Below, one piece after another: positions 5,307-9,356 of a stretch of DNA of 64,000 nucleotides; the stretch's first letter is position 1; each line of letters begins with the position of its first letter. The DNA is taken from assembly GCA_029861865.1 (NCBI GenBank), contig JAOTYL010000001.1, forward strand, positions 562,536-626,535. The letters run 5' to 3'. Position numbers and translations under genes: made by a program. A model generated the notes under the pieces. It did no database searches and was not told the DNA's origin. It saw nothing but the letters and a program-made list of their open reading frames with translations. The stretch is from Myxococcales bacterium. GTDB lineage: Bacteria; Myxococcota_A; Polyangia; Polyangiales; Houyiibacteriaceae.

Positions 5307-5358
5307 TCGTTGGCTTGTGGGTCGACTCACAACCCCGCGTGTGGCAGGTTGAAGTTTG

Positions 5359-6279
5359 ATGGCCCGGCCGCGCATAGCATTCGTCGGCTCTGGTGGTGCC
5401 GCGAAAGGCGTTGCGCACATAGGGGTCCTTCGCGCGATGGAAGAGCTCGGCATCGAAGCCGACATCTGTGTGGGCGCCTCGGCGGGCGCGATTGCGGGAG
5501 CTTTCTACGCCCAGGGATACACCCCCGCGCAGATGGTCGATTGGTTTCGCCCCTTTTGGCGCCGAGGCCTCGAGGACCCGCCCCTCAAGGCTCGGTACTT
5601 TCTCGGGCTCCCGAATCGCGAGCAGCGCCGGAGCTGGGGCTATCTGACCAGTGGCCTCTTCTCGATCGATCGCTTTGAGCAGTTCGTCGCCGAGCGACTG
5701 CCCACGGACGATTTTCGCGAGCTGGACAAGCACCTCATGGTCACGGCGGCCGACATCGACGGTCGGGGCCGCGTCGTCTTCGGTCGCGGATATCGCGAGG
5801 ACGTCCCGATCAGCAAAGCCGTGGCTGCTTCATCGTGCGTCCCAATGCTGTTCCGCCCCTACAAGATCGGCGACCGTTTCTACGTCGATGGTGAAGTCGT
5901 CCGCACCTTGAGCATCGATCTCGCGGTGGAAGCCGGCGCTGACGTCGTCATCATTTCGAACGTCTACCGCCCGCACGTGAGCCGAGTCGGCAGCCCGTCT
6001 CTGGTTTTTAAAGGCGGTGCCGCAGTGGTCCGCCAGTCGCTAAACTTGATTCTCAACGAAAAAGAAAAGCGCGGCATCGACTTGATTCACCGGATGTACC
6101 CACAGATTCAGGTGCTCGTGGTGTCGCCCGACCTCGGACGACTGCCATTCACCTCGAGGCTGCACGCCGGGAAGATGCTCCGACGCGGTTACCGAGATGC
6201 CCTGCGCATCCTAGCCAAAGCCAAACGCCGCGGCGTCTTCGAAGTCGCCCCCAACGTAAGAAGCATCGGCGAAGCGTAA
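5359..6279 (+). CDS. Patatin-like phospholipase
   Basis: Patatin-family serine hydrolase of 306 residues. The glycine-rich oxyanion loop 'GSGGAAKG' is at residues 10-17, the nucleophile elbow GASAG has Ser41, and the second member of the Ser-Asp dyad is Asp177 in 'YVDGEV', where many relatives have DGG/DGA. This is the short bacterial RssA/YchK type, predicted to cleave acyl ester bonds in phospholipids; no signal peptide is seen, so a cytoplasmic or inner-membrane location is likely. A TTG directly before the ATG could add one residue. It is convergent with cutA across a hexamer repeat. Confidence 0.9.
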   Translation: MARPRIAFVGSGGAAKGVAHIGVLRAMEELGIEADICVGASAGAIAGAFYAQGYTPAQMVDWFRPFWRRGLEDPPLKARYFLGLPNREQRRSWGYLTSGLFSIDRFEQFVAERLPTDDFRELDKHLMVTAADIDGRGRVVFGRGYREDVPISKAVAASSCVPMLFRPYKIGDRFYVDGEVVRTLSIDLAVEAGADVVIISNVYRPHVSRVGSPSLVFKGGAAVVRQSLNLILNEKEKRGIDLIHRMYPQIQVLVVSPDLGRLPFTSRLHAGKMLRRGYRDALRILAKAKRRGVFEVAPNVRSIGEA

Positions 6280-6306: not shown

Positions 6307-6420
6307 GGCACTGACACTGACACTGACACTGGCACTGACGCTGGCACTGACGCTGACACTGGCACTGACGCTGGCACTGACGCTGACACTGGCGCTGACA
6401 CTGGCGCTGCCACTGTTACT
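6307..6420. repeat. Degenerate hexamer tandem repeat between patatin and cutA
   Basis: Nineteen consecutive 6-base units built from GGCACT, GACACT, GACGCT and GGCGCT, filling almost the whole gap between two convergent genes and ending on the cutA stop codon. Two perfect 30-base blocks are adjacent (6331-6360 and 6361-6390), showing a recent higher-order duplication. All units keep period 6, so all frames stay open, which produces artificial low-complexity readings on both strands. Confidence 0.93.
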
Positions 6421-6742
6421 GCGTCTGTTCGACGGCCCACTTGGCGTAGGGCTCGGCGACGTCACAGGCCGACAGGGCGACTAGCTCTGGCACGTCGTAC
6501 GGATGCTGTTCGTGGATCCACTCTTCGATCGCTTCGAAGCGCGACCGCTGGGTCTTGATCAGCATCTGGACTTCCGAGCCGACTTCGATCTTGCCTTCCC
6601 ATCGGTAGAAGGAGCGAACCCCCGAAATCACCTTCACGCAGGCGGCGAGCCTACTTTCGACCAATCCCTTTGCGAGGCGCTCGGCCGTTTCGTCGTCTGG
6701 GACCGTGCAAAAGATGACGATGAGCTCGTGTGGGACGGTCAC
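6416..6742 (-). CDS. cutA: Divalent-cation tolerance protein CutA
   Basis: CutA1 family, 108 residues, a PII-like trimeric protein linked to copper/divalent ion tolerance. Typical segments are present: 'ETAERLAKGLVESRLAACV', 'SFYRWEGKIE', 'LIKTQRSRFEAIEEWI' and 'HPYDVPELVAL'. The start is GTG. The stop TAA lies at the very end of the hexamer repeat. The upstream amidotransferase-like gene ends 13 bases away in the same direction, so the two are probably transcribed together. Confidence 0.95.
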   Translation of the reverse strand: MTVPHELIVIFCTVPDDETAERLAKGLVESRLAACVKVISGVRSFYRWEGKIEVGSEVQMLIKTQRSRFEAIEEWIHEQHPYDVPELVALSACDVAEPYAKWAVEQTQ

Positions 6743-6755
6743 GAGCCGAGTCTAC

Positions 6756-7568
6756 TCAAAGCGCGTGGACCGTCACGTCGAGCCCGCGATTGATCACTGC
6801 GACGGAGCGTTCCGGCACGATATTGTAGCCGACCGGGGCGTCCTCGACGTCGGTTACGACCATCACGTAGCGGAGCTTGGTGCTCCCAGTCGGGGGTGGT
6901 TTGTAGTCTTTGGGCGGGTCGTGCATGCCCTGGCGCTCGACGTAGGCCATTGGTGCACCGTAGCGGAGCGCATACATCGAGCGGCCATTGGTGAGAATGA
7001 AGCTCAGGCTGTTGTCGGTTGCGCCGACTTCTGCGGTGAGCCGCTCGACGAGCGCCACTGCGGTGCCGATCGCAGCGAGGGCTTGCGCCTCGGCGACGTC
7101 CGGGTTGTCGAGCTGCCCTGCGTCATGAAGGAACGTCAGCATCGTGTGGAAAAGGTACTCGCTGTCGGTCTGCCCACGGATGTTGCGGCGAATGAAGTCC
7201 GGAATCGTCTCGGCGAGGCTAGCGCGGATCGCGTCGAACCGATCGATCGTTCCCTCATGCGCGAACAACCACTGTCGCATACGGAACGGGTGGGCGTTTT
7301 CGGCTCGAAAGTCGCCAACGGTGGGTTGTCGCAGATGCAACACGGCACAGTCGCTATGCACGTCGCCAGCGATGTGCTCCCAATCGACTCGTTCGGCAGC
7401 GCGTGTCGGGCGCTTCTTGTGGAGCACTTCGTCGCCGTGATAGAACCCGATCCCCCATCCGCTCGCGCTAGGCGGCGCCGTGTCTTGGTTCAACACCGCG
7501 CGCTCTTGATGGAGCGCATCGCGCATTCGATCCGCCCGGTTCGCCACGTATCCGATGAGCCTACTCAT
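6756..7568 (-). CDS. Class II glutamine amidotransferase homologue lacking catalytic Cys
   Basis: Protein of 270 residues of the YafJ/EgtC-like class II glutaminase family (Ntn-hydrolase fold). Family landmarks: 'SRLIGYVAN' at the N-terminus, 'HLRQPTVGDF' and 'NAHPF', 'LFAHEGTID', and 'GQTDSEYLFHTML'. Active members begin Met-Cys, exposing Cys as nucleophile; here residue 2 is Ser (AGT). The oxyanion-hole Asn of the usual HNG is Glu105 (HEG). Both changes predict loss of ordinary glutaminase activity, though Ser can act as nucleophile in other Ntn hydrolases. The open frame and intact fold residues argue against a decaying gene. It lies upstream of cutA and divergent from xerD. Confidence 0.85.
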   Translation of the reverse strand: MSRLIGYVANRADRMRDALHQERAVLNQDTAPPSASGWGIGFYHGDEVLHKKRPTRAAERVDWEHIAGDVHSDCAVLHLRQPTVGDFRAENAHPFRMRQWLFAHEGTIDRFDAIRASLAETIPDFIRRNIRGQTDSEYLFHTMLTFLHDAGQLDNPDVAEAQALAAIGTAVALVERLTAEVGATDNSLSFILTNGRSMYALRYGAPMAYVERQGMHDPPKDYKPPPTGSTKLRYVMVVTDVEDAPVGYNIVPERSVAVINRGLDVTVHAL

Positions 7569-8690: not shown

Positions 8691-9356
8691 ATGTCGTCGT
8701 TCGACGTATGGGTAATTCGTTTCTCGCCGGGTGGAGCTCCCCCCTCGGAGCGGTTGAAGAACGCCTTCGGCATCGACGACGCCAGCGCACGGTCGCTCGA
8801 GCAGAACCTTCCCCGCGTCGTCAAGCACGGCGTTCCCGCAAAAGAGGCGGGGGAAATGCGAAAAGTACTCGAGTCGATCGGTGCGGTGGTCGAGTGCCGT
8901 CCTGCCCGGGACCCTAAACCATCGGCTGGACCCGGGCCGGCGGTATTCCAGCGGCCGGCCGAAGACCTCTTGCCGGGCCGCATGTCGGCGATCGATCCCT
9001 TCGCGCCCGCCGCTCGACCCGACGTTCCAAGGATCTCGGTCGACGATCCTGTCGCTCCACGGCCGCCAGCGACCAAGTCAGATGTGTCCGGAGTGCTTCG
9101 TCCGTCCTCTTTGCCGCCGCCAGGCTCCGTCGATCAGTTGATCCGCGCCAAGTCGCGCGATCAACAACGAAGGGTCTTCCTCAAGCAGGCTGTAGGCACG
9201 ATTCTCGCGGGCGTTGCCATCCTTGCGATCGGCTGGTTCATGGGGACCTCCGTTCTTCGCGGCGACGCTGGTTGGGTGGGCATTGCTTTTGACGGCGTCG
9301 GAATCTACTTCCTAGGCGTCGGGGTGTGGGACTTGTTCACCACGCTCAGGAGCTAG
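8691..9356 (+). CDS. Membrane protein with ribosomal L7/L12-like N-terminal domain
   Basis: Protein of 221 residues, not recognised as a named family. Residues about 5-70 resemble the C-terminal domain of bL12: a first strand 'VWVIRFSPGG', helix 'SERLKNAFGIDDASARSL', 'LPRVVKHGVP', then 'KEAGEMRKVLESIGAVVEC', paralleling the KEAKDLV / PVKEGVSKEEAEEIKKKLEEAGA pattern. A Pro/Ala-rich linker (about 75-145) follows, then two hydrophobic segments ('AVGTILAGVAILAIGWFMG' and 'GIAFDGVGIYFLGVGVWDLF'). The domain is probably a cytoplasmic protein-interaction module held at the membrane. The next gene starts 5 bases downstream. Confidence 0.75.
   Translation: MSSFDVWVIRFSPGGAPPSERLKNAFGIDDASARSLEQNLPRVVKHGVPAKEAGEMRKVLESIGAVVECRPARDPKPSAGPGPAVFQRPAEDLLPGRMSAIDPFAPAARPDVPRISVDDPVAPRPPATKSDVSGVLRPSSLPPPGSVDQLIRAKSRDQQRRVFLKQAVGTILAGVAILAIGWFMGTSVLRGDAGWVGIAFDGVGIYFLGVGVWDLFTTLRS

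Follow-up and report, generated by a model that had tools for sequence, protein, structure and literature searches.

Catalytic class II glutamine amidotransferases possess an N-terminal Cys nucleophile, an oxyanion Asn within an HNG motif, and a substrate-binding Arg and Asp. In the glutaminase domain of GlmS and PurF, which is attached to a synthase domain, these features are represented by GlmS Cys1, Asn98 together with Gly99, Arg73, and Asp123. EgtC (TIGR03442; PDB 4zfj, 4zfk, and 4zfl) is a gamma-glutamyl Ntn hydrolase that functions in ergothioneine biosynthesis. The uncharacterized family PF13230 (GATase_4) includes SPO2029 (PDB 3mdn), E. coli YafJ, and yeast Dug3. Not every domain with this fold is known to work as a glutaminase: the N-terminal domains of beta-lactam synthetase and carbapenam synthetase have lost the Cys and are not known to have kept that function. 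The class II fold can nonetheless bind without its nucleophile, because Cys-to-Ala variants have been crystallized with ligands, as the PDB titles of EgtC C2A with substrate (4zfl) and GlmS C1A with glutamate (3ooj) record.

Here, we describe a stand-alone relative of these proteins from the phylum Myxococcota. Its gene lies in a window (the whole stretch of DNA analyzed, 64,000 nucleotides) with the following features.

6756..7568, minus strand: coding sequence of a 270-residue protein with a class II glutamine amidotransferase fold and no Cys nucleophile, a predicted pseudo-glutaminase (open reading frame and translation, Pfam, AlphaFold2, fold matches)
7563..7565, minus strand: codon 2, AGT (Ser), at the site of the catalytic Cys, GlmS Cys1 (GlmS alignment; AGT in 17 of 17 loci of the genus)
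7254..7256, minus strand: codon 105, GAG (Glu), at the site of the oxyanion Asn, GlmS Asn98 (GlmS alignment; Gln or Glu in the genus)
7329..7331, minus strand: codon 80, Arg, equivalent to GlmS Arg73, which binds the substrate carboxylate (GlmS alignment)
7164..7166, minus strand: codon 135, Asp, equivalent to GlmS Asp123, which binds the substrate amino group (GlmS alignment)
6416..6742, minus strand: cutA, a probable co-transcribed neighbor in the window's genus (PF03091 at 3.2e-36; order conserved in the genus)
5356..6279, plus strand: patatin-like phospholipase gene, which repeatedly neighbors the family's genes across several families of the order (PF01734 at 1.7e-33; neighborhood comparison)

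The reading frame begins ATG-AGT (Met-Ser) and carries FAHEG (His104-Glu105-Gly106), NAHPF, and GQTDSEYLFHTML. Pfam assigns the product to PF13230 (GATase_4; 2.5e-20) and PF13522 (GATase_6; 2.6e-10), and its sequence matches are EgtC, the SPO2029 protein 3mdn, and 1te5. Alignment to E. coli GlmS bears out the proposal, made in an earlier note on this DNA, that Ser2 and Glu105 stand in place of the Cys nucleophile (Cys1) and the oxyanion Asn (Asn98). Retained in the same alignment are Arg80 (Arg73), His93 (His86), Gly106 (Gly99), Thr134, and Asp135 (Asp123). Thus, the protein and the GlmS/PurF domain correspond in fold and, residue by residue, in the pocket, whereas the nucleophile and oxyanion Asn are replaced and the synthase domain is missing. 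A sequencing error at 7563-7565 is excluded because 17 of 17 loci from the same genus read ATG-AGT, with CAR or GAR, and in no case an Asn codon, at position 105. A wrongly chosen start codon was rejected on similar grounds: the 17 loci agree, and there is no conserved upstream extension. A promoter scan and an Rfam search of the region returned no match.

Structure prediction, as the earlier note had recommended, yields a confident class II Ntn fold. Specifically, the AlphaFold2 model, built from an 85-row alignment, has a mean pLDDT of 94.3 and a pTM of 0.92, and it matches known class II glutaminases over its whole length at Z 22-25 (24.7 for 3mdn, 22.4 for GlmS C1A, and 22.1 for EgtC). In the model, the fold is intact and of the class II (Ntn) glutaminase type, and residue 2 aligns with the nucleophile end (residue 1/2 of GlmS/EgtC). 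The best Foldseek match is EgtC (Z 22 over ~213 residues). Like EgtC, the protein possesses equivalents of the substrate-binding Arg and Asp; unlike EgtC, it has neither Cys2 nor HNG, and its TIGR03442 score of 68.8 bits falls below the equivalog cut-off of 218.65. With GATase_4, it shares the Pfam family, the fold, and the NxHPF and TDSE motifs. The beta-lactam and carbapenam synthetase domains match the model at Z 9-12, but they are fused to a synthetase, while the protein described here stands alone and belongs to another branch of the superfamily.

We searched 377 Myxococcota genomes and found homologs in 257. Approximately 100 homologs were extracted and aligned, giving a set of 86 non-Cys and 12 Cys members. 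Among the 86, residue 2 is Ala in 36, Ser in 26, Gly in 11, Pro in 4, Thr in 3, and Tyr and Arg in 1 each, and it is absent in 4; position 105 is occupied by 15 different residues across the non-Cys family. Asn105 is universal in the 12 Cys members. A wider set, to which plasmid homologs from other phyla, E. coli YafJ and GlmS, and distant members were added, contains 33 Cys2 and 58 non-Cys proteins, and Asn105 is present in 33/33 of the former versus 4/58 of the latter. Every plasmid relative from another phylum with a readable N terminus has Cys2. On trees built with the residue-2 and residue-105 columns excluded, the non-Cys rows form one side of a single branch, with SH-aLRT values of 92 for the phylum set and 64, which is not significant, for the wider set. 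Most likely, the Cys nucleophile and the oxyanion Asn were lost together, once; since the value in the wider tree is only 64, a single loss is the best reading of the data and not a forced one. The earlier note had reasoned that its proposal would fall if homologs of the same clade all had Cys2 and HNG. They do not: 58 of 58 clade members in the wider tree are non-Cys.

The clade has conserved residues of its own. Whereas the Cys members of GATase_4 (33/33 sampled) have both Cys2 and HNG and this clade, as a rule, has neither, Leu49 (57/58), Pro54 (58/58), Arg96 (57/58), and Pro123 (55/58) are near-invariant in the clade and differ from the residues of the Cys homologs. The substrate-binding pair is less uniform: in the non-Cys phylum set, Arg80 is present in 74/86 and Asp135 in 76/86, and branches whose proteins start MSQVFGY, MKLFACM, or MDKLIAYF have lost Arg80, Asp135, or even the GWG motif. 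Three loci from one family (L119, L121, and L122; genomes G231, G322, and G392) are extremely degenerate. They start MDKLIAYFANH, and their GWG, substrate Arg, HPF, HNG, and TDSE elements are all altered; LVKSRP and PFRFG stretches are still present. A second deep branch (L178, L179, L180, L183, and L184), found in other families of the phylum and starting M[ST]xxxGYxCS, conserves RKHP, QPFR(F/Y)R, and PD(H/Y), and the glutamine-binding residues are changed or lost in some of its members. In one further locus, L042:5001-5729 on a related chromosome, the match ends at query residue 167 and the frame then differs (a 243-residue open frame), indicating an assembly frameshift or a truncated copy.

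Ser2 is found in 17/17 loci of the window's genus, always encoded by AGT, while residue 105 is Gln in 14 and Glu in 3. Sister lineages have Gly2 or Ala2 together with Ser, Thr, Leu, Asn, His, or Val at 105, and one Gly2 relative uses GGT, a single transition from the AGT of the genus. Across the family, Ser2 members carry Gln, Glu, His, Val, Ala, Asp, Ser, Leu, Asn, and other residues at 105. In the 28-sequence subclade around the protein, position 105 ranks at the 97th percentile of variability (entropy), flanked by invariant His104 and Gly106, and Arg80 and Asp135 are invariant in 28/28. The idea in the earlier note that Ser2 and Glu105 are two matched changes does not survive these comparisons: residue 105 is free to vary in proteins that have Ser2, Glu and Gln alternate within the genus, and the two residues do not co-occur as a clade, Ser2 being fixed only in the window's genus and nested among Gly2 and Ala2 relatives. 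Because the sisters have Gly2 or Ala2, position 105 is varied, and GGT is one transition away, we regard Ser/Glu as a combination that arose locally and recently at positions free to change, and we rejected the pair as a functional unit.

Purifying selection on the gene is strong. Pairwise dN/dS within the genus has a median of 0.07 (range 0.035-0.13), and the neighboring xerC has a higher median nonsynonymous difference than the gene does. In the order, members at E 1e-57 or better occur in 61 of the 71 genomes searched, as counted from the match list, and at least three genera have no gene or a much degenerated form. No internal stop codons occur among the matches listed. With its catalytic residues lost, one change on the trees, and dN/dS of ~0.07, the family has the properties of a selectively kept, monophyletic GATase_4 pseudoenzyme clade. 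Gene order in the genus is kept as xerC, the amidotransferase-like gene, cutA, patatin, tpr, efp, and genX. Other families retain parts of this neighborhood (efp/genX, patatin, xerC), and loci at 35% identity still have the gene beside tpr-efp-genX; this conservation therefore indicates vertical inheritance.

The earlier note had offered two readings of the reused fold, a pseudoenzyme or a Ser-nucleophile Ntn hydrolase. The old, conserved clade that lacks both nucleophile and Asn argues for the former, and the Gly2 and Ala2 of the nearest relatives argue against the latter. Enzymes of the Ser type do exist (PMC9140057), and a penicillin-acylase-like hydrolase in the genus, with Ser2 as nucleophile and Gln or Glu105 in an oxyanion or acid role, would fit the presence of Ser2 in all 17 genus loci; moreover, removal of Met alone would make Ser N-terminal, and the predicted fold puts it where the nucleophile belongs. 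As to precursor processing, the loci contain no conserved upstream propeptide. However, the N-terminal Ser is fixed only within the genus and is not conserved across the clade, as it would be in a family of the penicillin acylase type. Ser2 is nested among Gly2 and Ala2 orthologs with the same synteny and family-specific residues, all 17 genus loci share one AGT codon that a single transition from GGT could generate, Glu105 alternates with Gln, and Ser2 elsewhere pairs with unrelated residues at 105. We reject Ser catalysis as the family's mode, since close orthologs have Gly2 or Ala2. Because Ser2 is fixed only in one nested genus, a conserved Ser-nucleophile hydrolase is unlikely, and one confined to the genus is quite unlikely too. 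Retention of glutaminase activity through another residue or an upstream, processed Cys is barely conceivable. Ntn enzymes can have a short propeptide ahead of the nucleophile, as in B. subtilis PurF, but here the position that aligns with the Cys carries another residue, and extending the N terminus would not bring the Cys back. The oxyanion Asn is lost too, and the sequence 5' of the start is unconserved, with stops in several loci.

Two further readings were considered. The strongly conserved polar and charged residues that are absent from Cys homologs could mark a different enzyme whose active site was rebuilt around Arg96, Arg98, His/Asp148-149, and the basic run at 51-54, with residue 2 unused. 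We judge this unlikely, as Pro54, Leu49, Arg96, and Pro123 are the only near-invariant residues family-wide, and Arg98, His148, and Asp149 vary in divergent branches. Alternatively, the gene could be a decaying paralog with no selected function and headed for loss. Some genera of the same family indeed lack it (G022, G357, and G360, where matches are only at the Cys-paralog level), and degeneration in the family of L119, L121, and L122 is extreme. Decay is nevertheless highly improbable in the face of a dN/dS of ~0.07, phylum-wide retention, family-specific invariant residues, and the lack of internal stops among the matches listed.

We favor, with good though incomplete confidence, the interpretation that the protein represents an ancient Myxococcota family with the class II (Ntn) glutaminase fold that lost its Cys and Asn and was kept as a non-catalytic binding or regulatory protein. 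The comparisons show that the nucleophile and oxyanion positions are released from constraint, while the predicted fold is retained and purifying selection on the rest of the protein is strong. Family members would hydrolyze neither glutamine nor gamma-glutamyl substrates, because residue 2 lacks a nucleophilic side chain in most orthologs. Loss of a key residue in a deep ancestor combined with strong preservation across the phylum means that, judged from sequence, the protein probably binds something and does not cut it. Function across the family may well rest on Leu49, Arg96, Arg98, Pro123, and a run of basic residues that ends at Pro54; together, these perhaps form a partner-protein or anion-binding surface. 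An adaptor or binding surface is favored as the shared function because Leu49, Pro54, Arg96, and Pro123 are near-invariant and the Arg80/Asp135 pocket is not universal; its loss in several divergent branches likewise means that glutamine binding is not common to the whole family. Inactive proteasome alpha and beta subunits, in which the Ntn fold is retained as a non-catalytic scaffold (PMC9140057), provide a precedent for such a role, although they belong to a different Ntn family and nothing here points to ring assembly.

In the subclade around the protein, the retained Arg80/Asp135 pocket could still hold a glutamine-, glutamate-, or gamma-glutamyl-like ligand, and the protein could serve as a subunit with a binding, sensing, or adaptor role. 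Ligand sensing would be an additional role, possible in the order-level clade, beside the shared surface function. We speculate, tentatively, that the family is a metabolite sensor or adaptor that defines the phylum: an early Myxococcota duplicate of a gamma-glutamyl hydrolase that, after losing Cys and Asn, still reads, in the order-level clade, glutamine, glutamate, or a gamma-glutamyl compound via Arg80/Asp135 and signals through the basic, Pro-containing KKRP54 and R96xR98 surface to a near-universal partner.

Our search of the open-access literature found no description of an inactive class II amidotransferase clade of this type, nor of one in Myxococcota. Cys loss is already known in the fused domains of beta-lactam and carbapenam synthetases; a pseudo-glutaminase that stands alone and occurs across a phylum is new, as far as our tests reach. 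Pfam places the protein in a glutamine amidotransferase family, and default annotation would call it a class II glutamine amidotransferase, yet the clade appears incapable of the usual chemistry. A conserved, vertically inherited pseudo-glutaminase alongside active paralogs offers a clean natural experiment. With the oxyanion site free and the substrate-recognition residues fixed, conversion of an Ntn pocket into a sensor would be directly testable. Functional genetics in culturable myxobacteria, in turn, gains a defined, near-universal gene that has no assigned role.

The genome that carries the pseudo-form also encodes a canonical Cys2 paralog (MCRLFGF...HNG; L002), as do many other genomes of the order. 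Obligate pairing of the two is unsupported, as several pseudo-form genomes gave no other full-length match at the threshold used, a comparison limited by the incompleteness of genomes. The neighborhood comparison reveals no apparent shared pathway among the conserved neighbors (patatin, efp/genX, xerC, and cutA). Adjacency to cutA, to which the earlier note drew attention, is real: cutA follows the gene on the same strand after a 13-bp gap. The arrangement is a local one, tight in the window's genus and one other genus and loose or absent elsewhere, and we set the putative operon aside as a functional clue for that reason. Two features of the surrounding DNA are also of note. A 221-residue protein encoded at 8691-9353 has, near its N terminus, a weak, below-cut-off match to the C-terminal domain of ribosomal L7/L12, followed by other sequence, and is syntenic in the genus. 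At 6309-6415, where cutA and the patatin gene converge, the gap that separates their ends is filled by a short tandem array of ~18 hexamers (CACTGA-type units, with higher-order periods of 12, 18, and 30 bp), which abuts the cutA stop codon.
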